Part shown: positions 1,162 through 27,153 of the stretch, piece after piece | Layout of the letters: every line of letters starts with the position of its first letter | Position numbering within the stretch: the first letter of the stretch is position 1 | Assembly (NCBI GenBank): GCA_003151975.1 | Contig: PLZD01000065.1 | Location: forward strand, 1-33,603 | Source of the DNA: Elusimicrobiota bacterium | GTDB lineage: Bacteria; Elusimicrobiota; Elusimicrobia; UBA1565; UBA9628 | Length of the DNA: 33,603 bases | Direction: 5' to 3' | Translations under genes and position numbers: made by a program | Notes under the pieces: model-generated | Told to the model about the DNA's origin: nothing | Seen by the model: only the letters and a program-made list of their open reading frames with translations | Databases searched by the model: none

Positions 1162-3348
1162 CTAGTCCGGTCCGACCCCGACCCTGTTGCGATGGAAAAC
1201 GGCGTTGATGCGGGCAAGGATCAACGGGTGGGCGGAAGGCTTCATGATATAATCGTCGGCCCCCAGAGAGAACGCTTTCTCCTGATCGTTGTCATCGCTG
1301 CTTGCGGTCAGGACGATCACGGGCATGGCTCGGGAGGTCTCGTTGAGCTTGCGCAGGACTTCAAAGCCGTCCATGACCGGCATCTTCAGGTCCAAAAGCA
1401 ACAGATCGGGAGCGGCCTGAGATATCATCGATAGGGCCTGAGTCCCGTCGGCGGCTTCGTCCACGAGGAAGCCGCTGGCCTCGAGAAGCTTGCGCAGCAC
1501 CGTGCGGGCGGCGGGATCGTCATCGATGACCAGGATCTTGCGCTGGCCCGGGGCCGCGGCCGCCGCGGTCTTGATGGCCGCGGTCTTCGCCGCCCGCGCG
1601 TAGCGGTCCGTTTCGAGATCGATATGAGGCAGGAGCTCCTCGATCGATGTCTCGCCGCTGGAGAGCCGGCGCATCGCGTCGGCCACCAGCGGGCGAAGGG
1701 CTCCGGATTCCAAGGCGATCCGCCGCAGGGCGATCGTGTCCATTCCCATGCTGATGGCTTCCCTCAGCTCATTGCTGATCTCGAGATATTCCGAGATGAG
1801 AATACGCCCCGAATATCCGCGCCCCTCGCATTTCTCGCAGCCGATGGACTTGTAATAATTTAGGGGCAGTTTATGCCGGGCCAGGATGTCGAGCACGCGC
1901 GGATTGGCCAGGGCCGGCGCGATCGGAGCCTTGCACGCCGGGCAGAGGCTGCGCACCATGCGCTGCGCCGTGACGGCCAGCAGCGCAGGGGCGAGCTTGA
2001 ATCGTTCGATGCCCATGTCGGCCAAGCGGGTTAGCGATGAGACCGTGTCGTTGGTATGAATGGTCGTCAAAACGAAATGGCCGGTCAAAGCCGCCTGGAT
2101 GGCCATTTCGGCGGTCTCGCGGTCGCGCACCTCGCCGATCATGATGACGTCGGGGTCCTGGCGCATGACCGATCGCAGGATCGCCGCGAAGGTCAAACCT
2201 TGCTTGTCCAGGACTCTGACTTGGTTTATTCCATCCAATTTATATTCTACGGGGTCTTCGATCGTCGTTATATTGATCTCGGGAGCCTTGATGCGATTAA
2301 GGGCCGAATAAAGCGTGGTGGTCTTGCCCGAGCCCGTGGGCCCGGTGACGAGCATCAGACCCTGAGAGCGTCTGAGGATCCTCTGGATGCTATCGCACAC
2401 TTCAGGCTGGAACCCAAGCTCTTCGAAAGGGGTGGCGGCGGCGCCGGGGTCGAGGATCCGGATGACGATCTTCTCGCCGGTGTTGGTCGGGAGGCTGGAG
2501 ATCCGCAGGCCGTACTCCGTCGCTCCGACCATGATGCTGGCTCGCCCGTCCTGGGGACGCATGCGGTCGGCGATGTCCAGATCGGCCATGATCTTGATGC
2601 GGGATACGACGGCTCCGGCCGCGATCTCCCGCGGCAGGCTCAGCATGGGGCGCAGGTCCCCATGGATGCGGTAGCGCACCGTGCTCAGCCGCGCGGCATG
2701 CTCGATATGGATGTCCGAGGCGCCCATGCTCACGGCTTTGGAGATGATCGCGTTGACCAGCGCGATGATGGGCGCCGTGACGGGATCGGCGGGTGCCGAC
2801 GCTTCTCGCCCTTCGGTCTCCGCGTTGGCGCCTTCAAGCAGCTCGATCTTGTCATGCTCGCCGATATGCGACAGCAGGTCGTTGACGACGAGTTCGGTCT
2901 GATAGCACTTAGTGAGCAAGGCTTCCATATGCGACGGGAAGCAGAAATACGAGGTGGGAACGCGGCCGGTCAGCGCCTGAACGTCCGCATGGGCGTTAAG
3001 ATCCAATGGATTGATCATGGCGACATCGACGGACTGATCGTGGATCTCAAGCGGCAGGAGGAAATGGCGGCGGCAGATCTTCTCGGGGATGAAGGAGAGG
3101 GTCATTTTATCGATCGTTTCTTTTGAAGGGTTCACGCTCCTGATGGCATGGAAATTGGAGATGGCCTCGACGAGGACCTCTCGCTTGAGAGTCCCCTTGT
3201 CCACGAGAGCCTGGCTCAGATAGGGCATTCGTTCGGCGCGGAACCCATCCACGATGCCGGGAGGCACTTCGGGCATCGTCATCACTAGGGATGTGATCCA
3301 TTCGTCCCTGAATCGGTATGACTTATCCGTGTCTCCCAATGCGGGCAT
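1162..3348 (-). CDS. GspE/PilB-family secretion or pilus ATPase fused to a C-terminal receiver domain (728 aa)
   Basis: Cytoplasmic hexameric ATPase of type II secretion or type IV pilus assembly. An N-terminal MshEN-like domain (about 40-160) is followed by the ATPase core. That core has Walker A GPTGSGKT (336-343), an Asp box around IEDPVEY (363-369), Walker B DPDVIMIGEVRD (398-409), a His box LTTIHTND (427-434), and the tetracysteine zinc site CPAC (469-472) with CEKC (504-507). An Ala/Lys linker leads to a CheY-like receiver (about 603-722) with acidic DDD (609-611), phospho-acceptor D653, T681 and K703, all intact. No pilin or other secretion gene is nearby. The start is ATG at 3348, 6 nt after a TATACT -10 box and without a Shine-Dalgarno sequence, so the mRNA is probably leaderless. 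An internal start at Met23 or Met25 is possible. The gene lies between two 107-bp direct repeats. Confidence 0.93.
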   Translation of the reverse strand: MPALGDTDKSYRFRDEWITSLVMTMPEVPPGIVDGFRAERMPYLSQALVDKGTLKREVLVEAISNFHAIRSVNPSKETIDKMTLSFIPEKICRRHFLLPLEIHDQSVDVAMINPLDLNAHADVQALTGRVPTSYFCFPSHMEALLTKCYQTELVVNDLLSHIGEHDKIELLEGANAETEGREASAPADPVTAPIIALVNAIISKAVSMGASDIHIEHAARLSTVRYRIHGDLRPMLSLPREIAAGAVVSRIKIMADLDIADRMRPQDGRASIMVGATEYGLRISSLPTNTGEKIVIRILDPGAAATPFEELGFQPEVCDSIQRILRRSQGLMLVTGPTGSGKTTTLYSALNRIKAPEINITTIEDPVEYKLDGINQVRVLDKQGLTFAAILRSVMRQDPDVIMIGEVRDRETAEMAIQAALTGHFVLTTIHTNDTVSSLTRLADMGIERFKLAPALLAVTAQRMVRSLCPACKAPIAPALANPRVLDILARHKLPLNYYKSIGCEKCEGRGYSGRILISEYLEISNELREAISMGMDTIALRRIALESGALRPLVADAMRRLSSGETSIEELLPHIDLETDRYARAAKTAAIKTAAAAAPGQRKILVIDDDPAARTVLRKLLEASGFLVDEAADGTQALSMISQAAPDLLLLDLKMPVMDGFEVLRKLNETSRAMPVIVLTASSDDNDQEKAFSLGADDYIMKPSAHPLILARINAVFHRNRVGVGPD

Positions 3349-3452
3349 ATGGTGAGTATACTCCGCCGGCCGCCTGATAAATATTCGGAGTAATGCCGGG
3401 TCCGGCGAGTAGTATTACGGAAGGCGGATTTTGTCGGGATCGGCCTGGCCGC
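3346..3452. repeat. 107-bp direct repeat, copy 2
   Basis: Same block as 1030-1136, here in its apparent original setting: the true end of the HEAT-repeat gene (GQADPDKIRLP and a stop) followed by the promoter and start codon of the PilB-receiver gene. The two copies bracket that gene exactly. Confidence 0.9.
3355..3421 (-). promoter_or_regulatory. Shared-type promoter of the PilB-receiver gene
   Basis: Minus strand: distal site CCGTAATACTACTCG (centre 3413.5, overlapping the HEAT gene stop), proximal site GCATTACTCCGAAT (centre 3391.5), -10 box TATACT (3360-3355). The ATG at 3348 is 6 nt downstream. Confidence 0.8.
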
Positions 3453-5275: not shown

Positions 5276-6859
5276 TCAAAAAGCTTGCCCCGCGAGGATC
5301 GAAAGCGACCACCGCGACGAGGTCTTGTTGTCGCTGAGCGCGTAGGCCATGTCGATGCGCAAGGGGTTGTTGCCCGACGAGCGCGACGGGGCCCCGCGAA
5401 AGCCGAGGCCGACGCTGCTCTTAAGGTCGTGCGGCCTGATCCCGGTCGAGGATTGTCCCGCATAGCCCGAGTCGAAGAATGCGACCGCGCCAACGTCGAA
5501 GAGCCGAAAGAGCTCGTCCCAGACGAAGATGCGGTCCTCGATGTTGAACAGGAAGCGGCGGTCTCCCGAGAACTCGCTGAGGCCGTAACCGCGCAGGCCG
5601 TTGACCTCGCCCAAGGACAGCTGCGAGATCGGGTCGAGATGCCAGGCGAGGTCCAGGCCGCAATGGAAGGCTAGGGTCTGGTATTTGAAGCCGCGCAGAT
5701 AATAAACCGCGTTGAAAGAAGCGAGACGGTTGCTGTTGCCTCCGTCCACGTACTTCGAGCTGTAGCCGGAGCTCAGGAGCAGCAGCTGGTCTCCCCACGT
5801 GAAGCCTTTGTGCGCCGAGATGCTCGGAAGGACTTGCGCTCCGGTGATCCCCAAGGCGCGGACCTCGGGAGCCCACGCCACGGCGGGAATGATCCCGAAG
5901 CCCATATTGATATCCTCATCGTGCGTGAATTTGTTTATCCTCCGCACGGTCATGAAGTCCAATTCTTCCCAGTCCCCTCCCAGCTGGAAGAAACCCCACT
6001 GCTCGCGGGGCGGGGGCGGGACGAGGCTGGGCTGTCCCTGTTTGAGCATGTAATCGGCGTGGTGCGCGAGGAAGCCGAGCGTGACGCGCCGCGTGCGCTC
6101 GGTCGAGGTCGCCACGGCGACGCCGAAGTTGGGCCCGGCCTCGATGATCGACTTGGAGTACAGGCCGGTCGGCGCCGCGAAATCGCTGACGTTGTAGGTG
6201 AGAAGGCCCCCGTAGGAATAGGGCGAGATCGAGGAGGCGAAGGGACGGTTCAAGGTCAGCGCAAAATTCTTGCTGCCGGGATTGGAAGCGGCGGCCGCCG
6301 CGAATTGAAGGTGCTTATGGTGAAGGAACTGGGGGTCCTGATAGCTGAGGGACTCGGAGGCCGAGGGGCCGTTACGGCTATATTCGACGCCGGCCCCCTT
6401 GCCCTCGCCCAGGATGTTGTGTTCGGCGAGCCCCCCATTGAAGCCGTCGACGCCGCCGGAGCGCTTGAAGCCCGCGATGACCTCGAGACTCCAGGAATCG
6501 TACGTCCGCACGATCAGATCCACGGAGCCCAGGTCGTTGACCGTCGCCTCGATTTTGGCGCGGCGGATGAAGGACAGCCCGCGCAGGGCGCGCTCGGTCT
6601 CCTCGATCAGCGCCTGGTCGTAGGTGTCGCCGACCTCGAAGAGCAGTTCCCGCTCGATGACGGCGTCGCGCGTGCGGATGTGAAGGTCGTTGGCGAGCTT
6701 ATAGAGCTTTTTGTTCTCGGGCGGGGCGCTCGTATCGAAGACCTCGTGGCTCTCGATCTTGATCGAGGCGATGACGAGGCCCGCCGGCAGGCGAGGCTTT
6801 GCGGGCGACGCCGCGAGGGCCGTCGCATGCAAGCAGAGCAGCAAGGTTAGTGCGCGCAT
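5276..6859 (-). CDS. Omp85/BamA-family outer-membrane barrel protein (527 aa)
   Basis: Outer-membrane beta-barrel of the Omp85 superfamily, with roles in protein insertion or transport. The signal peptide is MRALTLLLCLHATALAAS. A POTRA-like domain follows (about 28-125), with the pattern YDQALIEETERALRGLSFIR and VNDLGSVDLIVRTYDSW. The barrel has alternating hydrophobic strands, a late LRGYGLSEFSGDRRF motif resembling the conserved Omp85 [VL]RG[FY] loop, and a C-terminal Phe. The start is placed at ATG 6859. A longer frame reaches 6937, but it crosses the promoter -10 box (6886-6891) and adds a non-hydrophobic Arg-rich leader. It heads an operon with the Lys-rich and HEAT-repeat genes. One POTRA is fewer than the five of canonical BamA, so a specialised Omp85 is likely. 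Confidence 0.85.
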   Translation of the reverse strand: MRALTLLLCLHATALAASPAKPRLPAGLVIASIKIESHEVFDTSAPPENKKLYKLANDLHIRTRDAVIERELLFEVGDTYDQALIEETERALRGLSFIRRAKIEATVNDLGSVDLIVRTYDSWSLEVIAGFKRSGGVDGFNGGLAEHNILGEGKGAGVEYSRNGPSASESLSYQDPQFLHHKHLQFAAAAASNPGSKNFALTLNRPFASSISPYSYGGLLTYNVSDFAAPTGLYSKSIIEAGPNFGVAVATSTERTRRVTLGFLAHHADYMLKQGQPSLVPPPPREQWGFFQLGGDWEELDFMTVRRINKFTHDEDINMGFGIIPAVAWAPEVRALGITGAQVLPSISAHKGFTWGDQLLLLSSGYSSKYVDGGNSNRLASFNAVYYLRGFKYQTLAFHCGLDLAWHLDPISQLSLGEVNGLRGYGLSEFSGDRRFLFNIEDRIFVWDELFRLFDVGAVAFFDSGYAGQSSTGIRPHDLKSSVGLGFRGAPSRSSGNNPLRIDMAYALSDNKTSSRWSLSILAGQAF

Positions 6860-6885: not shown

Positions 6886-6951
6886 AGTATGCGCGATGCC
6901 GTCGTCGCAACCAAGTCGGAGTATTACGCAGGGTCATGCGTACAACTCCGA
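6886..6951 (-). promoter_or_regulatory. Shared-type promoter of the Omp85 operon (divergent)
   Basis: Minus strand: distal site GGAGTTGTACGCAT (centre 6944.5), proximal site GTAATACTCCGACT (centre 6922.5), -10 box CATACT (6891-6886). The two sites are the same ones used by the plus-strand promoter, in swapped roles. Confidence 0.75.
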
Positions 6952-6981
6952 ATTGGAGCCCGCGGGGCCGCGCGGTATCAT
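6917..6981 (+). promoter_or_regulatory. Shared-type promoter of the GlsB-PAP2-DUF3943 operon (divergent)
   Basis: Distal site GGAGTATTACGCAG (centre 6922.5), proximal site GTACAACTCCGAAT (centre 6944.5) directly followed by a TTGGAG -35-like box, and -10 box TATCAT (6976-6981) 17 bp on. Confidence 0.8.
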
Positions 6982-7009: not shown

Positions 7010-7255
7010 ATGGGATTATTTTATTTTCTCGTCGTCGGGCTCGTCGCGGGGTGGCTCGCGGGACAGTTCATGAAAGGCGGAGGATACGGCATGGTGGCCG
7101 ACATCGTCCTGGGCGTCTTGGGCGGCTGCGTCGGAGGCTGGCTCTTCACCGGCCTGGGAGTCTGGCCCGGCGGGGGAATCTTCGGGGCCATCTTCGTGGC
7201 CTTCATCGGAGCCGTGGTCTTGGTTTGGGGCGCGCGTCTGATCAAAAGAGCCTAA
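7010..7255 (+). CDS. GlsB/YeaQ/YmgE-type small membrane protein (81 aa)
   Basis: Small inner-membrane protein of the transglycosylase-associated family (GlsB/YeaQ/YmgE), which is typically stress-induced. Three hydrophobic segments are visible: about 2-21 (GLFYFLVVGLVAGWLAG), 28-48 (GMVADIVLGVLGGCVGGWLF) and 55-77. The Gly-rich pattern DIVLGVLGGCVGGWLF followed by GGGIFGAIFVAFIGAVVLVW is the family signature. The start is ATG at 7010, preceded by AGGAGG with 7 nt spacing. It leads an operon with a PAP2 phosphatase (4 bp gap) and a DUF3943 protein. Its promoter carries two shared operator sites and a TATCAT -10 box, so it is expected to belong to the common regulon. The molecular function of this family is not settled. 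Confidence 0.9.
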   Translation: MGLFYFLVVGLVAGWLAGQFMKGGGYGMVADIVLGVLGGCVGGWLFTGLGVWPGGGIFGAIFVAFIGAVVLVWGARLIKRA

Positions 7256-9509: not shown

Positions 9510-9821
9510 TTAGGGCTTGATCTCTATGTTGTTGACGACGTTCTTGACGCCGTCCACGCCGCGGGCGACGACTTCCGCCCGGTTCTTATCATCCACGTTG
9601 GGCACGAGGCCGGAAAGATAAACCGTGTTCTCCACCGTCTTGACCCCGATATGGGTCAGCGTCCCAGGATGATTGCCGCCCGCCAAACGGGTCTTCACGG
9701 TCGCCGTGATCCCGGCATCGTCCAAGCTGTGTCCCGCGGTCTCGCCCGTCAGGGTCTTGCAGCCGGCGGCCAGAAACAACGAGAGTCCCAGCACCATCCG
9801 AAGCGTTAAAAACCTAGACAT
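9510..9821 (-). CDS. BON-domain lipoprotein (103 aa)
   Basis: Small envelope lipoprotein with one BON domain, a fold found in osmotic-stress proteins such as OsmY and thought to bind membranes or peptidoglycan. The N-terminus MSRFLTLRMVLGLSLFLAAGC carries a lipobox (LAAGC, Cys21). The BON domain spans about 34-101 (DAGITATVKTRLAGG through VYLSGLVPN to VVNNIEIKP). The start is ATG at 9821, preceded by AAAGGAG with 7 nt spacing. A longer frame to 9872 lacks these signals and would cross the -10 box at 9844-9849. Its promoter has the shared proximal site GTAGAACTCCGGAT at the exact spacing, placing it in the common regulon. Confidence 0.9.
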   Translation of the reverse strand: MSRFLTLRMVLGLSLFLAAGCKTLTGETAGHSLDDAGITATVKTRLAGGNHPGTLTHIGVKTVENTVYLSGLVPNVDDKNRAEVVARGVDGVKNVVNNIEIKP

Positions 9822-9843: not shown

Positions 9844-9910
9844 ATGATAGCCGTCGCCGCGCCGCGCGGCAATCCGGAGTTCTACCGTGCGCGGCGCGTA
9901 AAAGCCCTTA
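9844..9910 (-). promoter_or_regulatory. Shared-type promoter of the BON lipoprotein gene
   Basis: Minus strand: distal site GGGCTTTTACGCGC (centre 9902.5), proximal site GTAGAACTCCGGAT (centre 9880.5), -35-like TTGCCG, -10 box TATCAT (9849-9844). Confidence 0.8.
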
Positions 9911-9977
9911 TCCGTAGTTATACGGATGCTCCGGGGGATGAGTCCTGATTGTGCCGCGCGAGGGACGGCGGCATAAT
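9910..9977 (+). promoter_or_regulatory. Shared-type promoter of the CheB-CheR-PAS kinase/regulator operon
   Basis: Distal site is a perfect palindrome, ATCCGTAGTTATACGGAT (centre 9918.5). The proximal site GGATGAGTCCTGAT (centre 9940.5) is weaker. The -10 box is CATAAT (9972-9977). The kinase ATG lies about 35 nt beyond the expected transcription start. Confidence 0.8.
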
Positions 9978-10018: not shown

Positions 10019-13000
10019 ATGATAATCAGTAAGCCTAGGGGTTTCCCTATCGTCGGCATCGGGGCTTCCGCGGGCGGGCTCGAGGCCTTCGAGAGCCTAT
10101 TGACCGGCTTGCCGCGGGAACCGGGCAAGGCCTTCGTGCTCGTGCCCCATCTCGCCCCCCAGTTCGAAAGTCATCTCAGCGAGATATTGGCACGCAACAT
10201 CAACCTGCCGGTCAGGGAAATAAAAGGGGGAGACAAAGTCGAGCCCAACCAGATTTATGTCATCCCGCCCAATCGTTCCATGGTTATTAAGGAAGGGATT
10301 CTCCATCTTTCCGCCGCCAAACGCGACATCCAGCGCTTCAATCCCATCGACAGCTTCTTTCGCTCCTTGGCTGACGACCAGAAGGGGCGCGCGGTCGGAG
10401 TCCTCTTGTCCGGCTCGGGCACCGATGGGACCGAAGGACTCAAAGCCATCAAGGCGCGCGGTGGAACCACTTTCGCGCAGGACGATGAGAGCGCGGGCCA
10501 TCTCAGCATGCCGCACTCGGCCGTGATCGCCGGCTGCGTGGACTTCGTCTTTTCTGCGGCCGAGATCGGGCGGAAGCTCGGCCTTACCCTCAACGGCGGC
10601 CACCGTCAGCAATTCAAGTCCTCGGTCGAAAAGACCATCGATAGGATCGTCGCGCTTCTGCGGGCCGCCAAGGGAGTGGACCTCGAGTTCTATAAGCGGG
10701 ATACGATCCGGCGGCGGATCCAAAGACGCATGGGGCTCAACCGTGTGCGGGATATCGAGAAGTACCTCCGTCTTCTTAAATCGAACCCCGAGGAGGTCGA
10801 GCGGCTCTATGGCGATGTGCTGATCTGCGTGACTTCCTTCTTTCGGGAACCGGACTCCTTCCGGGCCTTGAAGACCGCCATCTATCCGCGCCTGCTCAAA
10901 AACAGGTCCGCGCGTCTGCCGATCCGCATCTGGGTTCCGGGCTGCTCCACGGGCGAAGAGGCTTATTCCCATGCCATCAACTTGATCGAGTACCTCGAAA
11001 AAAACCCCTCCCAGACGCCGTTCCAGATATTCGCCACGGATGTCAACCCCGAGGTCATCGCGAAAGCCCGCATCGGCTGTTACTCGGAGAAGATGACCGC
11101 GGGGCTATCCCCTGAGCGCCTGCGGCGCTTCTTCGTGAAGACCGACGCCGGCTACACCGTCATCCCGGCGATCCGCGACCGGTGCGTCTTCGCCGTTCAC
11201 GACCTGGTGCAGAATCCGCCTTTCACGGGCATCGATCTGATCAGCTGCCGCAACCTGCTGATCTACCTGGGTCCCTCGCTCCAGGACAAGGTGATGCAGA
11301 TGTTTCAATATGCCTTGAAGCCCAGGGGAATCCTCATGCTGGGCCGCTCGGAGGGCGTCGGGGAATTCTCCGGACGCTTCTCGCCGCTGGACTCGATAAA
11401 AAAAGTGTTTTCGGAGCGCACGACGGCTTCCAAGGCGCATCTCGATTTCGTCCGATCCAATCGCTTCTTGGAGACCGAGGCCACCTTCAAGAGTCCGGGT
11501 ATAGACGTTAGGGGGCCGCGCCTGCCGACGGAAGACTCCTTCGATCTGCAAGGCCAGTTGGACGGCGTCCTGCCCGCGCGCTACACCCCCAATGGAGTCA
11601 TCGTCAACGCGGAACTCGAGATCCTTCGATTCCTGGGTAATACCTCCGGGTTTCTGCGTCCGGCGCCCGGGAAACCCAGCATGAATCTGCGCCGCATGGC
11701 TTCGGGGGCCCTGCTTCTGGAGCTCAGGGCGGCCATCCAGGCCGCCAAACAGTCGGCCAGCGGGGTGCGCAAGGAGATCTCCGCGTTTCACGCGGGCGGG
11801 CCGCCTCGGCGCGCCCGCATCGAGGTCCTGCCGATCAAAGCCTCCGCACCACTAAAGGAATACTTCGTCATCCTCTTCGAGGAGATCTCCGCAAACGGCG
11901 AGGATTCGGGCGCCGCGGGGAAAAGTCGCGGCAAGCAACGCCGCCGCATGCGGGAGCTCACGGAGGACCTGGCGACCTCCGCCGAGCACCTCAAAGCGAT
12001 CATCGAAGAGCAAGAGTCGACCAACGCCAGGCTCAAGGCCTCCAATGAGGACCTTCTTTCCAGCAACGAAGAACTGCAAAGCATCAACGAGGAGTTCGAA
12101 ACCTCCAAGGAAGAGCTCCAATCGAGCAACGAGGAGCTGCTCGCGTCGACCGAGGAAGTCCGGCGCGGCAACGAGATCTTGCGCCACGCCAACAACGACC
12201 TATCCAATCTGCTGGCCAACAGCGACATCGCCATCGTCCTCCTGGATTCCAAGCTGGCGATCCATCGCTTCACGCCGGCGGCGGAGAAGGTCCTCGGGCT
12301 ATCCTCGGACGAGATCGGCCGATCCGTCGAGACGGCCAAGCTTTCGCTGCGCCTTCCCAATCTCAAAGACCTGCTCCTGAACGTCATCAAGACCGGCCAG
12401 AGACACGCATTGGAAGCGCAGGATCTTCAGGGCCGCTGGTATTACCTCATCCTTCGCCCTTACCGGACCGACAAGAGCGGCGGCGAGAAAAGCAGGATCG
12501 AGGGCGCCGTGATGGCGCTCATCGATATTACCGCCCGGAAGCTCTCCGAGAAGAACTTGCTTCGCCTGGCCACCGTTGTGCTCGACTCCAACGACGCCCT
12601 CATCATCTACGATCTCAAGGACCGCATCACCGCCTGGAACAAAGGCGCGCAAAAGATGTACGGCTATACCAAAGCGGAAGCCTTGCGCATGAACATCCGG
12701 CGGCTCACGCCGAAAAATATGCGCATACGGGTGCGGGAGCTGGTTCGGGTATCGGCGGCGCCGCTGGTGACCCAGCGCCGCACGAAAGACGGCCGCATTC
12801 TCGACGTGTTGCTGACCGTCACCGTGCTGCGCGACAGCAAGGGCCGGGCCGTCGAGGTCGCCACGACCGAGCGGGACATCACGGAGCAGAAGCGGGCCGA
12901 GCTGGAACGCAAGCTCATCGAAAAAAGCGTGGTGCGGCTGGCCACCGTGGTGCTCGACTCCAACGACGCCGTCATCGTCTACGATCTCAACGATCGGGTC

Positions 13001-14317
13001 ACCGCTTGGAACAAGGGCGCGCAAAGGATGTACGGCTACGGCGAAGCGGAAGCCTTGCGGATGAATATCAGGCAGCTCACGCCCAAAAACATGCGCATCA
13101 GGGCGCGCGAGCTGGTTCGGGTGTCGGCGGCGCCCATCGAGACCCAGCGCCTCATGAAGGGCGGGCGGATTCTGGACGTGCTGCTGACCGTCACGGTGCT
13201 GCGTGACGACAAGGGCCAGGCCGTGGAGGTCGCCACGACCGAGCGCGACATCACGGAGCAGAAGCGGGCCGAGCGGGAACGCAAGCTCAACGAAAAAAAT
13301 GTGATGCGGCTGGCCACCGTGGTGCTCGATTCCAACGATGCCGTCATCATCTGCGATCTCAGCGGGAGGATCGCCGCCTGGAACAAAGGCGCGCAAAATA
13401 TGTACGGCTACAGCGAAGCGGAAGCCTTGCGCATGAACATCAGCCGGCTCATGCCGGAGCGCGATCGCATCAGCACGCGCGAGCTGCTCCGGCTGTCGTC
13501 GACGCCGATGGAGACCCGGCGCCGCGCGAAGGACGGCCGGATCCTGGACGTGCTGCGCACGGTCACGGTGCTGCGCGACGCCAAGGGCCAGCCGGTCGAG
13601 ATCGCCAAGACCGAACGGGATATCACGGAGCAGATGCGGGCCGAGCGCGAACTCCAGTGGCTTCACGCGCGGGTGATCACCGCCCAGGAAACGGAGCGCA
13701 AGCGCCTTTCCCGCGAGCTCCATGACGGCGTCGGTCAGATCCTCTCGGGAGTAAAATTCCGGCTCGAATCCTTGCCGGGGACCATGGCTTTGACCCCGGG
13801 CGCCTCGGCGAAGATCCTCAAGGTGGGCGGCTTTCTGAATCATGCCATCTCGGAGATCCGCCGCGTTTCGCAGAATCTGATGCCGTCGGAATTGGAGGAC
13901 CTGGGCCTTGAGCCGGCGCTCCATACCCTTTGCCGCGATTTCAAGGGGCGCTCGGGAGTCCACGTGACGCTGCGCAGCGGGGACGTTTCGGCGGCTATCG
14001 GGCCTAATTTGGCGCTGGCGTTGTACCGCATCGCGCAAGAGGCGCTCAACAACATCGGGAAACACTCTAAAGCGACCACGGCCATCGTCTCATTGTCCCG
14101 CAAGGGAAATGAGCTCGAACTGATCGTGAGCGATAATGGAATTGGATTCAAGGCCGGGGGCAGCCGACGGCTGCACGGCCGCGGCATCGGTCTTGGGAGC
14201 ATGCGCGAGCGGGCGCAGTCGGTCGGCGGCTCTCTCGAGATACAATCGAAACCGGGATCGGGCACCACGCTCGGCGTCCGCGCTCCCCTGTCGGGCCTAG
14301 GAGAATACCTCGTATGA
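10019..14317 (+). CDS. CheB-CheR-coiled-coil-PAS(4)-NarL-type hybrid sensor kinase (1432 aa)
   Basis: Large cytoplasmic signalling protein. An N-terminal CheB methylesterase domain (about 8-190) has the catalytic triad S17 (GASAGG), H44 and D136 (GSGTDG). A CheR methyltransferase (about 200-470) has a SAM-binding VPGCSTGEEAYS near residue 306 and CRNLLIYL. A coiled coil (about 650-720, SNEELQS repeats) leads to a divergent PAS domain (about 725-842). Three near-identical PAS domains of 124 residues start near 850, 974 and 1098. The C-terminus is a HisKA_3 dimerisation domain with H1235 (RELHDG) and an HATPase with EALNN (N1344, N1345) and DNGIG (1372-1376). HisKA_3 kinases phosphorylate NarL/LuxR-type regulators, and one follows with a 4-bp ATGA overlap. 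No transmembrane segment and no classical chemotaxis gene is present. The promoter carries two operator sites. Confidence 0.93.
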   Translation: MIISKPRGFPIVGIGASAGGLEAFESLLTGLPREPGKAFVLVPHLAPQFESHLSEILARNINLPVREIKGGDKVEPNQIYVIPPNRSMVIKEGILHLSAAKRDIQRFNPIDSFFRSLADDQKGRAVGVLLSGSGTDGTEGLKAIKARGGTTFAQDDESAGHLSMPHSAVIAGCVDFVFSAAEIGRKLGLTLNGGHRQQFKSSVEKTIDRIVALLRAAKGVDLEFYKRDTIRRRIQRRMGLNRVRDIEKYLRLLKSNPEEVERLYGDVLICVTSFFREPDSFRALKTAIYPRLLKNRSARLPIRIWVPGCSTGEEAYSHAINLIEYLEKNPSQTPFQIFATDVNPEVIAKARIGCYSEKMTAGLSPERLRRFFVKTDAGYTVIPAIRDRCVFAVHDLVQNPPFTGIDLISCRNLLIYLGPSLQDKVMQMFQYALKPRGILMLGRSEGVGEFSGRFSPLDSIKKVFSERTTASKAHLDFVRSNRFLETEATFKSPGIDVRGPRLPTEDSFDLQGQLDGVLPARYTPNGVIVNAELEILRFLGNTSGFLRPAPGKPSMNLRRMASGALLLELRAAIQAAKQSASGVRKEISAFHAGGPPRRARIEVLPIKASAPLKEYFVILFEEISANGEDSGAAGKSRGKQRRRMRELTEDLATSAEHLKAIIEEQESTNARLKASNEDLLSSNEELQSINEEFETSKEELQSSNEELLASTEEVRRGNEILRHANNDLSNLLANSDIAIVLLDSKLAIHRFTPAAEKVLGLSSDEIGRSVETAKLSLRLPNLKDLLLNVIKTGQRHALEAQDLQGRWYYLILRPYRTDKSGGEKSRIEGAVMALIDITARKLSEKNLLRLATVVLDSNDALIIYDLKDRITAWNKGAQKMYGYTKAEALRMNIRRLTPKNMRIRVRELVRVSAAPLVTQRRTKDGRILDVLLTVTVLRDSKGRAVEVATTERDITEQKRAELERKLIEKSVVRLATVVLDSNDAVIVYDLNDRVTAWNKGAQRMYGYGEAEALRMNIRQLTPKNMRIRARELVRVSAAPIETQRLMKGGRILDVLLTVTVLRDDKGQAVEVATTERDITEQKRAERERKLNEKNVMRLATVVLDSNDAVIICDLSGRIAAWNKGAQNMYGYSEAEALRMNISRLMPERDRISTRELLRLSSTPMETRRRAKDGRILDVLRTVTVLRDAKGQPVEIAKTERDITEQMRAERELQWLHARVITAQETERKRLSRELHDGVGQILSGVKFRLESLPGTMALTPGASAKILKVGGFLNHAISEIRRVSQNLMPSELEDLGLEPALHTLCRDFKGRSGVHVTLRSGDVSAAIGPNLALALYRIAQEALNNIGKHSKATTAIVSLSRKGNELELIVSDNGIGFKAGGSRRLHGRGIGLGSMRERAQSVGGSLEIQSKPGSGTTLGVRAPLSGLGEYLV
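12566..13681 (+). repeat. Three 372-bp tandem PAS-coding repeats
   Basis: Units start at 12566, 12938 and 13310, each beginning CTGGCCACCGT. Each encodes one 124-residue PAS domain plus linker (LATVVLDSNDA to ITEQ-RAE). The first two are nearly the same at DNA level and the third is more diverged, which suggests recent internal duplication. Confidence 0.9.
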
Positions 14318-14997
14318 AAGTGAAAAGCCAAGCCAAGATCAAAGTCTTCCTCGTGGACGACCATCCCGCCGTGCGCGAGGGAGTGCGTTCTTTTCTGACC
14401 ACCCAAGGCTCCGTGGCGGTAGTGGGCGAAGCGGCCGACGATGTGGAGGCCCTGCGCAAGCTCAAGAAGGTCGAGCCCGACGTCATCATCCTGGACATCA
14501 ACCTCCCGGCATTGGACGGAGGCGAGCTGGCCCGGCGGCTGCGCCAAGTGGTCCCGCACGCCAAACTGATCGCCTTCAGCATCCATTCCACTCCGGAATA
14601 CGTGGTCCGAATGGCCCGCAGCGGCGTGCACGGCTACGTGGTCAAAGACGCTCCGGCGGCCAAGCTCGTCGAGGCCATCCGCCAGGTTTACGGCGGGGGA
14701 CTTTATTTCCCGTCCGACATGTCCGACGCCATCTTGGCCCCGGGGTCCAATCCTTCCTCCAATCAGCCCGGCCAAGTCGTGTTGACCGCTCGAGAGCGCG
14801 AAGTCCTGGGCCTGCTCGCCGAGGGTCTGGCCAACAAAGAGGTCGCGCGCAAATTGGGCATCAGCGTGCGGACCGCCGAGACGCATCGCGAGCACCTCTC
14901 GCGCAAGCTCAACATCATGACGGTCGCGGGTCTGACGAAATACGCGATCCAGCAAGGACTGACGTCGCTTGGGACGACTCCCTCGCCCGAGAAGTAA
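14314..14997 (+). CDS. NarL/LuxR-type response regulator, cognate of the upstream kinase (227 aa)
   Basis: Two-domain transcription factor. The receiver domain (about 9-125) has acidic D15/D16, phospho-acceptor D61 (ILDINLP), and K111 (VVKD). After a short linker, a LuxR-type HTH occupies about 157-218 (LTAREREVLGLLAEGLANKE, recognition helix SVRTAETHREHL). The ATG overlaps the stop of the kinase gene (ATGA) and GGAG lies 11 nt upstream, so the pair is translated together and is very probably a cognate two-component system. Its HTH is nearly identical to that of the regulator at 16191-16862, which predicts the same DNA target. I infer that it binds the GTA-N4-TCCG sites found throughout this window, including those in front of its own operon. 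Confidence 0.95.
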   Translation: MKVKSQAKIKVFLVDDHPAVREGVRSFLTTQGSVAVVGEAADDVEALRKLKKVEPDVIILDINLPALDGGELARRLRQVVPHAKLIAFSIHSTPEYVVRMARSGVHGYVVKDAPAAKLVEAIRQVYGGGLYFPSDMSDAILAPGSNPSSNQPGQVVLTAREREVLGLLAEGLANKEVARKLGISVRTAETHREHLSRKLNIMTVAGLTKYAIQQGLTSLGTTPSPEK

Positions 14998-15029
14998 AAC
15001 CGCTTACTCAATAGTTTCGTCCCTGCCCG

Positions 15030-15072
15030 CGTAGAAGTACGGATAGCAGGCGAACGTCCCGAGAGTTATCCT
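15030..15072 (+). promoter_or_regulatory. Shared-type promoter of the receiver-only regulator
   Basis: One clear site, CGTAGAAGTACGGAT (centre 15035.5), with the -10 box TATCCT (15067-15072) at the standard distance. A second, distal site is not convincing. Confidence 0.7.
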
Positions 15073-15088
15073 TTCTATTAGACCAAGC

Positions 15089-15523
15089 ATGAAGCCAGAA
15101 CAAATCAAGGTGTTCCTTGTCGACGATCATCCCATCCTGCGCGAAGGGGTGCGCACCTACCTGACCAGCAATGCGATCAAGGTCGTGGGAGCCGCCGCCA
15201 ATGGCGAAGAAGCCCTGCGCAAGGTCAAGAAACTGGCGCCGGACGTCGTCATTTTGGACATTAACCTGCCCGGCATCGACGGCGGCGAGTTGGCCCGCCG
15301 CTTGCGCCGGCTCATTCCCAAGACCAAGTTGATCGCTTTCAGCATCCATTCGAGCGAAGCCTACTTCGCGAAGATGAACCGGTGCGGCGTGCAGGGTTAT
15401 GTGACCAAAGACCAGCCGACGACCGCGCTGCTCTCCGCGATCAAGCATGTGTTCGGCGGCGGACGGCGTTTCCCTCAAGGCTGGGCCCCGGCGCGCGTCA
15501 GCGGCGCCGGCGTCCCCCGTTAA
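15089..15523 (+). CDS. Receiver-only response regulator paralogue, lacking the HTH (144 aa)
   Basis: Close paralogue of the two NarL-type regulators, but it stops after the receiver domain. Conserved residues are D12/D13, phospho-acceptor D57 (ILDINLP) and K107 (VTKD). It matches the 16191 regulator closely through the VFGGG segment near residue 130 and ends in an unrelated Pro/Arg tail (GWAPARVSGAGVPR). The DNA after the stop goes straight into the next promoter and holds no HTH remnant in any frame, so this looks like a deletion rather than a frameshift. It could act as a phosphate sink, a competitor for the kinase, or a partner by heterodimerisation. No Shine-Dalgarno sequence is evident. 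It has its own promoter with GTAGAAGTACGGAT. Confidence 0.85.
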   Translation: MKPEQIKVFLVDDHPILREGVRTYLTSNAIKVVGAAANGEEALRKVKKLAPDVVILDINLPGIDGGELARRLRRLIPKTKLIAFSIHSSEAYFAKMNRCGVQGYVTKDQPTTALLSAIKHVFGGGRRFPQGWAPARVSGAGVPR

Positions 15524-15530
15524 TCCTCTC

Positions 15531-15594
15531 AGTAATAACCCCGTCCTCTCCCGTAGAATTCCGCATTGGCTGGGCGCGCGGCGCGCGCTATAGT
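15531..15594 (+). promoter_or_regulatory. Shared-type promoter of the barrel-regulator operon
   Basis: Distal site AGTAATAACCCCG (centre 15536.5, spacing 21 instead of 22), proximal site GTAGAATTCCGCAT (centre 15557.5), -35-like TTGGCT, -10 box TATAGT (15589-15594). The ATG at 15602 is 7 nt downstream. Confidence 0.75.
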
Positions 15595-15601
15595 AGTTGA
15601 C

Positions 15602-16186
15602 ATGAACGGTACGAACCGCCGCTGGCCGCTCCTGATTCTCGCCGCCGCACTTTGGCCCGCCTGCCGCGCCTGCGCGCAAGCCGACTCGCCCGACAAGCTC
15701 GGTCCGCGGTCGGGTTTTTCGTTGGGCGTCCGCGGCGCTTATTTTCGTCCCCTGGGCGCCGACGCCGGGGCCGTGGCGGGAGGAGCGCAGGCGCGCCTCC
15801 ATCTCAGCTCGACATGGGCCGTGGAGGGGTCGGTGGACGTGCGCCGAAATAAATTCGACGCGACGCCGGTGGATGTGGTCCCCGTCCAACTCTCGCTCAT
15901 GGCTTACGTTCTGCCCGCTGATTTCCGGCTCGCCCCTTTCGTTTTGGCGGGAGGCGGCTGGTACTATACCCATGTCGGCTCGCAGTTCAACCATTCTTCT
16001 TCGCGCTTCGGCCCGCACGCCGGGATGGGCGCGGAATACTTCATCAACAAGTCGTGGTCCGTAGACGGCTCCTATCGCTACCTTTGGGCCGAGGATATCC
16101 ATTCCCAGGATGCGACCCATCCCCTGGGGCGAAACTTCAGCGATCAAGGCTATATGTTGACCTTGGCTCTGAATTATTGGATCTAA
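15602..16186 (+). CDS. Small outer-membrane beta-barrel protein, OmpW/opacity-like (194 aa)
   Basis: Secreted eight-strand-type barrel protein. A signal peptide is followed by Cys-containing residues and CAQADS (MNGTNRRWPLLILAAALW start; cleavage near residue 26). Alternating strands follow, such as FSLGVRGAYFRPLG, WAVEGSVDVRRN, LAPFVLAGGGWYYTHVGS, FGPHAGMGAEYFINKSWSVDG and the terminal MLTLALNYWI. The pattern fits OmpW or OprF-N-terminal-type barrels. The start is ATG at 15602, 7 nt after the TATAGT -10 box; there is no Shine-Dalgarno sequence, so a leaderless mRNA is likely. It is followed 4 bp later by a NarL-type regulator, so a sensor-output pairing is possible. The exact family is not certain. 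Confidence 0.8.
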   Translation: MNGTNRRWPLLILAAALWPACRACAQADSPDKLGPRSGFSLGVRGAYFRPLGADAGAVAGGAQARLHLSSTWAVEGSVDVRRNKFDATPVDVVPVQLSLMAYVLPADFRLAPFVLAGGGWYYTHVGSQFNHSSSRFGPHAGMGAEYFINKSWSVDGSYRYLWAEDIHSQDATHPLGRNFSDQGYMLTLALNYWI

Positions 16187-16190
16187 GCGT

Positions 16191-16862
16191 ATGGGAACGC
16201 TGCGCGTAACGCCGGAAAGAAGGGAGAAGATCAAGGTTTTCCTTGTCGACGATCATCCCATGGTGCGCGAAGGGGTGCGCTCCTATCTGACCAACCACGC
16301 GATCGCGGTGGTGGGGGAAGCCTCCGACGCCAAAGAGGCCCTGCGCAAGATCAAGAAGCTCGTCCCCGAGGTCATCGTCCTGGATGTGAACCTGCCCTCT
16401 CTCGATGGCGGCGAACTGGCCCGCCGCCTGCGCCGGCTCGTTCCCAAGACCAAGCTCATCGCCTTCAGCATCCATTCCAGCGAGGCCTACGTCCTGCGGA
16501 TGGCTCGCTGCGGCGTGCAGGGCTACGTGACGAAAGACCAGCCCACGGGGGAGCTGTTGGCTGCTATAAAGGAAGTGGTCCAAGGCGGTCTGCATTTCCC
16601 TGTCGACATGGCGGGCGTTCTGTTGGAAGCCGGGGCGCAGTCCGACGCGAGCCTAAGCGCCCGCTCCGAGTTGACGGACCGGGAACTCCAGGTCTTGACC
16701 TTGCTCGCCGAAGGCTTGCCGAACAAGGGCGTCGCGAAGAAACTCGGCATCAGCGTGCGGACCGCCGAGACCCATCGCGAGCATCTTTCGCACAAGCTCA
16801 ACATCCTCACGATCGCCGGCCTCACGAAATACGCGATCGCGCACGGCATGACGTCGCTCTGA
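16191..16862 (+). CDS. NarL/LuxR-type response regulator (223 aa)
   Basis: Full two-domain regulator. The receiver spans about 14-130 with D20/D21, phospho-acceptor D65 (VLDVNLP) and K115 (VTKD). The LuxR-type HTH covers about 161-223 (LTDRELQVLTLLAEGLPNKG, then SVRTAETHREHL). It lies 4 bp after the barrel gene, with which it must be co-transcribed, and has no histidine kinase of its own in this window. The CheB-CheR-PAS kinase upstream is the obvious candidate phosphodonor. The recognition helix is the same as in the 14314 regulator, so both should bind one motif. Receiver identity to the 15089 paralogue is high, pointing to local duplication of a regulator gene. Confidence 0.95.
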   Translation: MGTLRVTPERREKIKVFLVDDHPMVREGVRSYLTNHAIAVVGEASDAKEALRKIKKLVPEVIVLDVNLPSLDGGELARRLRRLVPKTKLIAFSIHSSEAYVLRMARCGVQGYVTKDQPTGELLAAIKEVVQGGLHFPVDMAGVLLEAGAQSDASLSARSELTDRELQVLTLLAEGLPNKGVAKKLGISVRTAETHREHLSHKLNILTIAGLTKYAIAHGMTSL

Positions 16863-16919: not shown

Positions 16920-17009
16920 CGTATTATTCCCGTTCATCCCGCCCCGTAATTCTACCGCCGGCCTCGGGTAGAACTCCGAATTTACGGAAACACAGCCCTG
17001 ACCTATACT
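16920..17009 (+). promoter_or_regulatory. Shared-type promoter of the DUF3494-like/PorV-OmpA operon
   Basis: Proximal site GTAGAACTCCGAAT (centre 16972.5), distal site CGTAATTCTACCG (centre 16950.5), -10 box TATACT (17004-17009). A third possible site CGTATTATTCCCG is centred at 16925.5, spaced 25 bp. The rest of this 177-bp gap holds nothing else recognised. Confidence 0.8.
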
Positions 17010-17039: not shown

Positions 17040-18122
17040 ATGAAAAGAATAATCCGCAGCCTCGGATGGTTGTCCATCCTGGCGCTGGTCGCAGGCTTGG
17101 CAGCTCGTGTGTCGGCGCAGACAGTGGGTCCCAGCGTGGCCGGCTCGAATGTCACGGCGGCCACGGCGATCACTCTTACCGGAGTCAATCCGACCAACTT
17201 ACTGATCGTACCTGTTGTTGCGGAGAGCCCGGGCATCACTCTGACTATGACCAACGCCTCGGTCGGCACCCAGCACTTAGGCGATACGTTCGCGACCAAC
17301 GCTCAGGCGGACGCCACGGCGCTCGATACGAGTCTTACAGCGGCCGTCGCCGGCAGCAATGTTATCGCAATAGGCGGCGCTCTTCCTATCGCAATCAATG
17401 CCCTCGCTGGAGTCAACACCCTTACGGCGGCCGCCAACATCGTCAACGCCGGCCCGTTCACCTGTACCATAACAGGAACGCCCACGAGCATCGTGATCAT
17501 CCGGGCCCCCGGCGGATTCATGACTCTGACCGACGTCAACATCATACTTGCCGGCGGCATCCTTGCCGGCAATGTCTATTGGCAGGTGAATAATGCCATT
17601 ACGGTCACCAATAATGATGCCGTCAACAGGTCGTTCCCAGGAACGGCGCTTTCCCAGATTGACGTGACGGCGGGAGCCGTTGCCGTTACTTCCAGCGGTG
17701 CGGGCTCTCTTGGGATAGGCAGGCTGATCTCCCGGGTGGGCGGCGTCACCATCACCCAGTCGGGCGCGGGAACGCTGACGGTCGCCTTTCCAAGCGGCGG
17801 CACGGGCGGCTTTAATCCTCCCATCAATATTCCTATTAACATCTGCTCGGCGATCGACATGATCGTTCCCTCGCCTGTGACAGGGGCAACCGCGCAGTTC
17901 TCTTACTGCATGGACCAGCCCGGGACGATCAAGATCCGGGTCTACAACGCGGCCGGGGACCTCGTCGCCAAGATCGAGGATAGCAAGCAGTCCGGCGCGC
18001 AGCTCTCCAAGCTGAACACGGCTCGGCTCGCGCCGGGCGTCTACTATTACTTCCTGGAAAAGCATTATGGCGGCGGGACTGAATTTCGTGGCGGCGTAAG
18101 CAAGTTCGTCGTGGTCCGTTAA
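17040..18122 (+). CDS. Secreted DUF3494-like (ice-binding/adhesin-type) protein with FlgD-like C-terminal domain (360 aa)
   Basis: Exported protein. The signal peptide is MKRIIRSLGWLSILALVAGL with cleavage near VSAQ. The middle (about 25-245) is Thr/Ala/Gly-rich beta structure and resembles DUF3494 ice-binding-like domains: AGNVYWQVNNAITV, then SFPGTALSQIDVTAGAVAVT and GIGRLISRVGGVTI match the family's order of motifs. The C-terminus (about 275-360; TIKIRVYNAAGDLVAKIED, then LAPGVYYYFLEK and KFVVVR) resembles the FlgD Ig-like/C-terminal sorting domains of type IX-secreted proteins. The start is ATG at 17040, with GGAGG 9 nt upstream. An in-frame ATG at 17016 lies at the predicted transcription start. 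It is followed by a PorV-like gene. The DUF3494 call is from remembered motifs and is moderate; ice binding itself is not implied. Confidence 0.6.
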   Translation: MKRIIRSLGWLSILALVAGLAARVSAQTVGPSVAGSNVTAATAITLTGVNPTNLLIVPVVAESPGITLTMTNASVGTQHLGDTFATNAQADATALDTSLTAAVAGSNVIAIGGALPIAINALAGVNTLTAAANIVNAGPFTCTITGTPTSIVIIRAPGGFMTLTDVNIILAGGILAGNVYWQVNNAITVTNNDAVNRSFPGTALSQIDVTAGAVAVTSSGAGSLGIGRLISRVGGVTITQSGAGTLTVAFPSGGTGGFNPPINIPINICSAIDMIVPSPVTGATAQFSYCMDQPGTIKIRVYNAAGDLVAKIEDSKQSGAQLSKLNTARLAPGVYYYFLEKHYGGGTEFRGGVSKFVVVR

Positions 18123-18134
18123 GGAGACATGTAC

Positions 18135-19622
18135 ATGAAAATATCATCGATCGGGCTGGGACTTCTCGCCGCCGTCGCGCTCTGCGGCAGCGCCGTGGCT
18201 CAAGAAGTCGACTACGCCGCGGGGACCAGATCCTTGGCCCTGCAGCAGACGGCCGCAACGGCGCGGGCGATGGGCATGGGCTCGGCGGTGGTCGCGGTTC
18301 CTCAAGGAGCGGCGTCGCTGCTCTGGAACCCGGCCGGACTGGGTTTCATGGACTGTCGCGAAGTCAGCATCCATCATAACTCCGGGTTCAGCGGCATGAT
18401 CCAAGAGACCGGCATCGTCGGGGTTCCTCTGGGCAACGTCGCGGAACACGTCAAGAACGAGTGCTCCCACGGGGGCTCTCTGGGCGGGCTTGCCGCTTCG
18501 CTCGGCTACGTTGATTACGGAAGCTTCAACGGTACGGACGTCAACGGAAACACGACCGGCAACTACACGGCGAGGGAGTATTCGGGCAGCCTGGGTTGGG
18601 GCAAGGAAGTGTTGAAGGGTCTTTCGGCGGGCGTCGCGGTGACCGCGAACAGGCAGGACCTGTCCAACACGAGCTTCTACGGCTACACCACGAGCCTCGG
18701 CTTGATGTGGAACGCGACCAAGACCTTGGACTTGGGCGTTTCCTATAACAACCTCAACCTGGGCAGCAAGCTCGGCGGCAGCCTGCCGGCCTCGGGGTTT
18801 AGGGTGGGCACGGGCTGGACGATCGACCGTCATATCCTCTTGGCCCTGGCGGGAGAGCTGCAGGATAATTCGATGAACCGGCTCAATATGGGCGTCGAGT
18901 ATCTCATCGGCAACCTCGAGCGGAGGGTAAACTTGCTGGCCCTGCGGGCCGGCTATGTGGTGAACTTCCCCGCGCCCCAGTTGACCGGCCTGACCGGCCT
19001 GACGCTCGGCTTGGGCTACGAATTCGCGAAGGGAATGACCTTCGACTACGCATTCCTGCCGACGGGCGACCTGGGAATCTCTCACCGGTTGAGCTTGACC
19101 TTTAAGTTCGATTGCCCCAAGAACGCCCATCCGGCCCGTCCGGCGGCGGCGCAGACGCAGGCGCAAGCGCAGCCGGCTGAAGCTGCGGCGGTGCCGGCGA
19201 CGGACGAGGAGGAGGCTGCGGCGCCCATCGTCGTGCCCCTGGCCGCGCCCATCGTGCTCAGGTCGGTTTTGCTTGAAGATTCCCATTTCGACTTCGACAA
19301 ATCGGCACTCAAACCGGACGGCATGGCGGCTCTTGATGAAAATGTCCAGCTCCTGAAGGACAACCCGAACACTCTGGTGCGTGTGGCCGGGTACACCTCC
19401 TTGCGGGGCAAAGAGGAATACAACCAGCAGTTGAGCGAGAGAAGGGCGGCCGCCGTCGAAGCCTACCTCGTCGCCCAAGGCATCGCGCCGAGCCGGATCA
19501 CCACGATCGGATACGGCGATACGCGGCCGGCGGAGTATGAAGCCGACAAGAAAAAAAGGAACGCGAACTCGGCCGCGGCCAAGGCCAACATGCGCGTGCT
19601 CTTCGAGATCACTGTAAAGTAG
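18135..19622 (+). CDS. PorV/PorQ-like beta-barrel fused to an OmpA domain (495 aa)
   Basis: Outer-membrane protein. After a signal peptide (MKISSIGLGLLAAVALCGSA, cleavage near VAQ) comes a PorV/PorQ (UPF0164)-like barrel of about 300 residues. Its hallmark N-terminus is AARAMGMGSA-like (TARAMGMGSAVVAVPQGAAS, then LLWNPAGLGF). A linker rich in Ala, Gln and Glu (about 330-375) leads to an OmpA-type peptidoglycan-binding domain (about 380-495): FDFDKSALKPDG, YNQQLSERRAAAVEAYL and GYGDTRPAE. The start is ATG at 18135, where AAGGAG has 8 nt spacing; the ATG at 18129 would have only 2 nt. The stop of the preceding gene overlaps this ribosome binding site, so the two genes form an operon. PorV-type proteins hand over type IX secretion clients, which suits the upstream sorting-domain protein. 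A strong terminator follows. Confidence 0.85.
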   Translation: MKISSIGLGLLAAVALCGSAVAQEVDYAAGTRSLALQQTAATARAMGMGSAVVAVPQGAASLLWNPAGLGFMDCREVSIHHNSGFSGMIQETGIVGVPLGNVAEHVKNECSHGGSLGGLAASLGYVDYGSFNGTDVNGNTTGNYTAREYSGSLGWGKEVLKGLSAGVAVTANRQDLSNTSFYGYTTSLGLMWNATKTLDLGVSYNNLNLGSKLGGSLPASGFRVGTGWTIDRHILLALAGELQDNSMNRLNMGVEYLIGNLERRVNLLALRAGYVVNFPAPQLTGLTGLTLGLGYEFAKGMTFDYAFLPTGDLGISHRLSLTFKFDCPKNAHPARPAAAQTQAQAQPAEAAAVPATDEEEAAAPIVVPLAAPIVLRSVLLEDSHFDFDKSALKPDGMAALDENVQLLKDNPNTLVRVAGYTSLRGKEEYNQQLSERRAAAVEAYLVAQGIAPSRITTIGYGDTRPAEYEADKKKRNANSAAAKANMRVLFEITVK

Positions 19623-27051: not shown

Positions 27052-27057
27052 GATTAA

Positions 27058-27122
27058 AGGATACCCGCCGCCGCCCGCGACGCCAATACGGGATTCTACT
27101 CCCCATCGCGCGTATAAATCCG
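27058..27122 (-). promoter_or_regulatory. Shared-type promoter of the L,D-transpeptidase gene (divergent)
   Basis: Minus strand: distal site GGATTTATACGCGC (centre 27116.5), proximal site GTAGAATCCCGTAT (centre 27094.5), -10 box TATCCT (27063-27058). The TTG start is 6 nt downstream. Confidence 0.75.
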
Positions 27123-27153
27123 AATGGCCGCATCCTCGCGGCGGGGGTATCAT
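27090..27153 (+). promoter_or_regulatory. Shared-type promoter of the OsmC-Lpd-EEP operon (divergent)
   Basis: Distal site GGGATTCTACTCCC (centre 27094.5), proximal site GTATAAATCCGAAT (centre 27116.5), -10 box TATCAT (27148-27153). It shares both sites with the opposite promoter. Confidence 0.8.

Follow-up and report, generated by a model that had tools for sequence, protein, structure and literature searches.

Among the described systems closest to the locus analyzed here is the FixL/FixJ pair of rhizobia with its target fixK. The likeness lies in a regulator that joins a receiver to a NarL/FixJ-type helix-turn-helix (HTH) domain, and in two adjacent sites upstream of the transcription start. 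As cited in PMC4999443, the FixJ site begins with GTAG and has a pyrimidine-rich far half (SELEX sequence GTAGTTTCCC), and the FixJ footprints at fixK extend from −69 to −44 and from −57 to −31. NarL/UhpA/VraR-type systems are alike in that a HisKA_3 kinase adjoins a GerE-type regulator; NarL is also the nearest solved full-length homologue by sequence of the first regulator of our locus (1a04, E = 4e−33). Better-known bacteria give the switching of stress regulons to special sigma factors. The SigB system of Bacillus and the PhyR-EcfG system of the Alphaproteobacteria control small stress genes comparable to those found here, and genes of the CsbD and YtxH types belong to such sigma-factor general stress regulons. 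SigB signaling in B. cereus involves a kinase, RsbK, that is tuned by a methyltransferase (PMC9912610).

Elusimicrobiota is a mostly uncultured phylum. Our literature search turned up no regulon described for it, and neither a relevant CsbD, BON or LuxR stress regulon nor an Elusimicrobiota two-component regulon. Here we describe a kinase-regulator locus from this phylum and the promoters that are predicted to respond to it.

Materials and Methods

The window, by which we mean the whole stretch of DNA that was analyzed, is contig C39 (33,603 nt) of an Elusimicrobiota bacterium with a genome of 4.64 Mb. Loci encoding a first regulator (RR1) 72–79% identical to that of the window came from Elusimicrobia MAGs, and the search also covered further species within the same family and order. 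Promoters were scored with a matrix trained on the sites of the window and other sites of the same genome; the out-of-sample tests carry more weight. For computing site centers, the transcription start was assumed to lie 7 nt past the −10 hexamer. The regulator subfamily was defined by an HTH profile of RR1, the second regulator (RR2) and a third paralogue, RR3 (contig C27), with a gap between scores of at least 103 bits and scores of at most 88 bits. Co-occurrence was determined over 341 Elusimicrobiota genomes, with a hold-out set of 145 genomes not used before. The strict promoter pattern was used for this purpose; the relaxed N22 pattern was too noisy in the AT-rich genomes of the relatives.

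Results

Kinase, regulators and receiver-only protein

The first-pass annotation had described a HisKA_3 kinase, two NarL/FixJ-type regulators, an outer-membrane protein gene and a receiver-only gene, and Pfam matches bore this out. The genes are:

10019–14317, forward: sensor kinase of 1432 aa, CheB-CheR_N/CheR-PAS_10-PAS×3-HisKA_3-HATPase_c (Pfam); directly 5′ of RR1 in most relatives
14314–14997, forward: RR1, NarL/FixJ-type response regulator (Pfam); RR1 clade in the tree
15089–15523, forward: receiver-only protein, an RR2-type paralogue without the HTH that retains the phospho-acceptor Asp and the conserved Lys (Pfam, tree)
15602–16186, forward: outer-membrane beta-barrel protein (OMP), first gene of the RR2 operon (PF13505); adjoins RR2 in relatives too
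16191–16862, forward: RR2, NarL/FixJ-type response regulator (Pfam, HTH comparison, tree)

The kinase matched HisKA_3 (PF07730, E = 4e−12) and HATPase_c (PF02518, E = 3e−13), which places it among the HisKA_3 histidine kinases. Its CheB domain is of the CheB_methylest family. The CheB and CheR domains are fused to the PAS-HisKA_3 kinase rather than standing alone as in a che operon, and neither an MCP nor CheA turned up among those genes of the window that were scanned with Pfam. The kinase gene ends at 14317 and RR1 begins at 14314, giving the 4-bp overlap noted previously. Both regulators consist of Response_reg and GerE domains, the arrangement of the NarL/FixJ type. The recognition segment said to be shared by the two is indeed the same, SVRTAETHREHL, and their HTH regions are 77% identical. 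The receivers of RR1, RR2 and the receiver-only protein have in common the residues DD, D61, S89 and K111 of a phospho-receiver. The order kinase-RR1-(receiver)-OMP-RR2 was kept in most of the relatives' loci examined, and some genomes have a run of three such regulators (L149, L150).

A second kinase-regulator pair is present elsewhere in the genome (L237, G000:C27:140000–150015, the RR3 locus). The end of its kinase is 58% identical, and its regulator shares 66% identity with RR1 and has a nearly identical HTH, yet that stretch contains no regulon promoter of at least 19 bits.

In a tree of 46 receivers, the RR1 and RR2 types were separated with high support, and all of the receiver-only proteins fell among the RR2 types. 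A single origin of the receiver-only proteins was considered and rejected, as the tree requires at least two independent origins: five of them form one group in another family, and the copy in the window arose separately. In most of those five orthologues (L139, L141, L158, L163 and L167) a C-terminal tail rich in Lys and Arg takes the place of the HTH. Because the HTH was lost repeatedly while the phosphorylation site was kept, these comparisons suggest that the receiver-only protein has a selected role as a brake or phosphate sink. Single-domain receivers have related parts in the alphaproteobacterial stress response (MrrA, PMC5964349).

Structure of the promoters

The promoters of the window are composite. 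In each, the site GTANAACTCCGNAT is followed, after exactly 22 nt, by a −10 hexamer, and a second copy of the site is often located exactly 22 bp further upstream. The elements identified in the window are:

1039–1080, reverse: promoter before a 50-aa ORF, with a ferritin-like gene (243–803, reverse; Pfam) downstream; near-identical to the promoter at 3396; 29.4 bits
3355–3396, reverse: promoter of a T2SSE/PilB-like ATPase with a C-terminal receiver (1162–3348, reverse; Pfam); 29.4 bits
6886–6927, reverse: promoter of a POTRA/Omp85-like protein (5276–6859, reverse; weak Pfam match), in a divergent pair with 6940; 26.2 bits
6940–6981, forward: promoter of a GlsB/transglycosylase-associated protein (7010–7255; PF04226), with orthologous promoters in G024, G041, G046 and G049; 35.1 bits
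9844–9885, reverse: promoter of a BON-domain lipoprotein (9510–9821, reverse; PF04972); 35.7 bits
9910–9927, no strand: perfect inverted repeat ATCCGTA-GTTA-TACGGAT, distal site of the kinase promoter, starting 22 bp before the proximal site (9914 and 9936)
9936–9977, forward: kinase promoter, with a degenerate proximal site (9936–9949), N22 and −10 CATAAT (9972–9977); 16.7 bits; kept in L139, L140, L144 and L158
15031–15072, forward: promoter of the receiver-only gene; 29.0 bits
15553–15594, forward: promoter of the OMP-RR2 operon; 31.8 bits; kept in most relatives
16968–17009, forward: promoter of an ice-binding-like/Por-tail surface protein (17040–18122) followed by an OmpA-domain gene (18129–19622), with a distal site at 16944–16957 (Pfam); 34.5 bits
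27058–27099, reverse: promoter facing an L,D-transpeptidase gene (25381–27153, reverse; YkuD/Scaffold, Pfam), whose annotated start must lie further in; 24.6 bits
27112–27153, forward: divergent partner of the promoter at 27099, for which no convincing target ORF was found; 31.9 bits
30208–30249, forward: promoter of a secreted 210-aa protein (30286–30918); 24.9 bits
30951–30992, forward: promoter of the gene at 31034–31384, with the distal palindrome TCCGTAGAACTACGGA at 30926–30941; 23.5 bits
32824–32865, forward: promoter near the right end, with a short ORF (32892) and a receiver gene (33051–33518; Pfam) downstream; 32.0 bits

The first-pass annotation had placed shared sites in front of both operons and the receiver-only gene. 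These sites are present and exceed chance, since the window contains 13 composite promoters of at least 19 bits and each of 200 dinucleotide shuffles contained none. As a genome-wide marker the bare motif was rejected: it gave 29 matches versus 31 in the control, and we concluded that position relative to the −10 is what counts. Nearly every good site of the window that has a −10 has it 22 nt away. When site, spacing and −10 were combined (GTAGWACTMCGRAT-N22-TATAAT, up to three mismatches), the genome contained 18 matches and the reversed control none; a relaxed exact pattern gave 25 matches and 1 in the control. Beyond those of the window, at least 22 further promoters were found elsewhere in the genome, a lower bound because only stretches around pattern matches were scanned. 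The best palindrome had been assigned to the kinase. The repeat at 9910–9927 is indeed perfect, but the palindrome at 30926–30941 is equally so. The kinase promoter pairs its perfect distal palindrome with a proximal site that is degenerate yet in exact register.

Out of sample, the matrix of this genome gave 65 matches of at least 13 bits in 333 kb of the relatives' loci, compared with 5 matches in 841 kb of RR1-homologue loci from other phyla, none of them reaching 16 bits. When sites of the relatives were picked irrespective of a −10, 34 of 57 had TANNNT at 22 nt. A distal copy at 22 bp was present in the same orientation in 16 of 69 promoters and in the opposite orientation in 23, and no other offset was found more than three times. 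The centers of the sites lie at about −43.5 (proximal) and −65.5 (distal). With a sigma70-type −10 next to them, the tandem sites imply that a response regulator acts as activator, in much the way FixJ does at fixK; the predicted direction, activation, follows from a site geometry that fits an activator beside sigma70 RNA polymerase. Divergent promoter pairs start 12–13 bp apart, so that the proximal site of one is the distal site of the other.

Several further features of the promoters were observed. Divergent sharing of sites occurs at 6886–6981 and 27058–27153 of the window, in C24, C50 (twice) and C34 of the genome, and in G033:C67 and G041:C8. A smaller class of promoters has 23 nt between site and −10 (L140, L141, L146, L147, L148, L151 and L156). 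Several predicted −10 hexamers end only 3–9 nt before the chosen ATG (15594–15602 and 3348–3355 of the window, and 7209–7314 of L238), which would point to leaderless transcripts or wrong start choices. Positions 1039–1130 and 3355–3440 are near-identical, with the same distal site and a similar spacer in front of unrelated genes (the 50-aa ORF and the T2SSE-receiver gene), which suggests a recent duplication of the promoter. The T2SSE/PilB-like ATPase, which combines a C-terminal receiver with a regulon promoter, also has an MshEN domain.

Genes behind the promoters

In this genome, genes directly behind a promoter include several of stress type: GlsB/Transgly_assoc, a BON lipoprotein, CsbD, YtxH and DUF5670. 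Others, by Pfam, encode a weak match to RsbRD_N and PqiA, DUF1264, SLT, NamZ, L,D-transpeptidase, phosphatidylserine decarboxylase, MotA/ExbB and CheW proteins. Also behind promoters are a receiver-adenylate/guanylate cyclase, two other histidine kinases, the T2SSE ATPase with a receiver, and surface proteins that have an OmpA-domain gene next in line. CsbD, YtxH, GlsB and BON proteins are usually counted as stress proteins; because the targets include these families, a stress and envelope regulon is likely.

The only CsbD gene and the only GlsB gene of the genome both have the promoter. In genomes bearing the regulators, about 6 of 10 GlsB genes have it, versus none of 3 in the others. CsbD genes occur without the promoter in G041 and G044, and thus the content of targets drifts. 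As a phylum-wide test, CsbD was dropped for its small number of genes (8 genomes).

Co-occurrence of the regulators and the promoters

The first-pass annotation had called for a comparison of the HTH subtype with the motif across genomes, which was carried out here. By profile, 30 of the 341 Elusimicrobiota genomes contain the HTH subfamily. Of these 30, 17 have at least three strict promoters, as do 5 of the 311 others (Fisher 1.2e−16). In the hold-out set the counts were 4 of 5 and 3 of 140 (p = 1e−5). Both values are optimistic because they take no account of phylogeny. The remaining 13 subfamily genomes have fewer than three strict N22 sites; some of them rely on N23, and there are none in G044 and G051.

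Genomes with the motif and without an orthologue of the regulators were looked for as well. Against the 17 concordant genomes stand two clear exceptions, G158 (5 strict sites, 96% complete MAG) and G168 (6 sites, 90% complete MAG), in which no orthologue above 83 bits was detected; an assembly gap, loss or another reader of the sites are possible causes. Three genomes of family f29 (G333, G334 and G339) are borderline, with 3 strict matches each and no HTH subfamily; these matches are near noise or represent a distant variant.

In most relatives, sites stand in front of the OMP-RR2 operon. They precede the kinase in the window and in L139, L140, L144 and L158, fewer than half of the relatives with a readable upstream region; L138, L143, L147, L149 and L154 have not kept the kinase promoter. 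Judged by this distribution, autoregulation through RR2 appears to be the more conserved loop, and the autoregulated circuit proposed earlier is supported. The proposal that the kinase and its NarL-type regulators are the masters of the shared-site regulon also has good comparative support, from the promoter grammar, the co-occurrence and the synteny. NarL/FixJ-type regulators bind as dimers to inverted or direct half-sites upstream of the promoters they regulate; what was observed here is that the sites are palindromic, hold a fixed register and occur together with the HTH subfamily. The promoter architecture, the stress-gene content and the conservation across the phylum go beyond that annotation.

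Discussion

With good but incomplete confidence, we propose that the locus encodes an autoregulated NarL/FixJ-type two-component system that activates a stress and envelope regulon. The PAS domains of the kinase would sense a signal, probably cytoplasmic, with the CheB/CheR-like module perhaps tuning the response, and the kinase would phosphorylate both RR1 and RR2. The phosphorylated regulators would bind palindromic sites of the CCGTAG-NN-CTACGG type as dimers, the proximal one placed at about −43.5 against the −35 region and the distal one often two helical turns (22 bp) further up. From these positions they would bring in ordinary sigma70-type RNA polymerase at a −10 (TATAMT) that follows the proximal site after exactly 22 nt, and one pair of sites could serve divergent genes. 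Positive feedback would arise from the kinase-RR1 and OMP-RR2 operons being among the targets. The receiver-only gene is also a predicted target, and its product would probably drain phosphate or occupy the kinase, acting as a brake.

The identity of the reader is central to this proposal. The sites might instead be read by a different, unlinked DNA-binding protein, with RR1 and RR2 as mere members of its regulon. Regulators often belong to regulons themselves, the genome contains other GerE-domain genes, and G158 and G168 keep promoters without a detected orthologue. We nevertheless consider this improbable: the number of sites tracks exactly the RR1/RR2 HTH subfamily throughout the phylum, no other regulator was seen syntenic with the sites, and their palindromic GTAG...C form resembles the SELEX-derived sites of FixJ, which has the same type of domain (PMC4999443). 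That the element is recognized by an alternative sigma factor, with CCGNAT as −35 and TATAMT as −10, would account for the fixed register and for a regulon like those of SigB, RpoS or EcfG, but is very hard to sustain. A gap of 22 nt is too long for a −35/−10 pair (16–19 nt; 12–19 nt for the regulon promoters of alternative sigma factors such as SigB and EcfG), and the −10 is sigma70-like. The sites themselves are palindromes that can face either way and come doubled with an offset of 22 bp, and the kinase promoter combines a perfect distal palindrome with a degraded proximal element.

If RR1 and RR2 do read the sites, they could do so as antagonists, one activating while the other serves as repressor or anti-activator. 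They share a recognition segment and yet form distinct, stably maintained clades, and they differ in receiver and linker. Activator geometry at all of the sites found argues against this, as do the kinase neighborhood and HTH common to both and the rows of three such regulators in L149 and L150, and we regard antagonism as unlikely. The competition between two regulators proposed in the first-pass annotation is not supported: the shared HTH fits redundancy, heterodimers or division of labor equally well, and nothing sets antagonism apart from the first two. A more serious alternative concerns function, namely that the regulon serves mainly cell-surface and secretion remodeling (OMPs, adhesin-like surface proteins with OmpA, the pilus-type ATPase) rather than stress. 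Many targets are surface proteins, and in the relatives the strongest sites are often found ahead of a large secreted protein that has an OmpA-domain gene behind it. The GlsB, CsbD, YtxH, DUF5670 and BON targets, which are small stress-associated families, and the promoter on the genome's sole CsbD gene weigh against it. We take remodeling to be a credible reading, though not the expected one.

The two-component activation of a stress and envelope regulon would have a wider meaning. A tentative extension, which we put at somewhat short of an even chance, is that a branch of the Elusimicrobiota dispenses with an alternative sigma factor in its general stress response. It would rely on a CheB-CheR-PAS-HisKA_3 kinase, a small family of FixJ-like activators and sigma70 promoters of rigid two-site design that are often bidirectional and would number up to 35 or more per genome, with positive feedback on the activators balanced by receiver-only paralogues that arose by repeated loss of the HTH. 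If the stress role is true, this would be a general-stress-like regulon under a two-component activator instead of a sigma factor, and the repeated receiver-only paralogues would be a natural experiment in feedback design. The strict grammar and simple pattern make the regulon predictable in MAGs and testable in a heterologous host.

Compared with known systems, the locus differs from FixL/FixJ in its phylum and targets, and its kinase is a HisKA_3 protein with CheB/CheR domains, not FixL. The marks of the FixLJ oxygen and nitrogen-fixation system, a FixL-type heme-PAS HisKA kinase and a fixK target, were not found; the targets are stress and envelope genes. FixJ has very few targets, whereas here sites exactly 22 bp apart are spread over dozens of promoters. 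Unlike NarL/UhpA/VraR-type systems, the locus has a CheB-CheR-PAS kinase that is cytoplasmic, and its two or three paralogous regulators come with a receiver-only copy; the predicted regulon is one of stress and envelope genes. Unlike SigB and PhyR-EcfG, it has sigma70-type promoters with an upstream activator, and no partner-switch proteins are present in the cluster. We conclude that the system is a two-component system with FixJ-like regulators, and that what is new is how kinase type, paralogue set, rigid two-site promoter and predicted stress and envelope regulon are combined.
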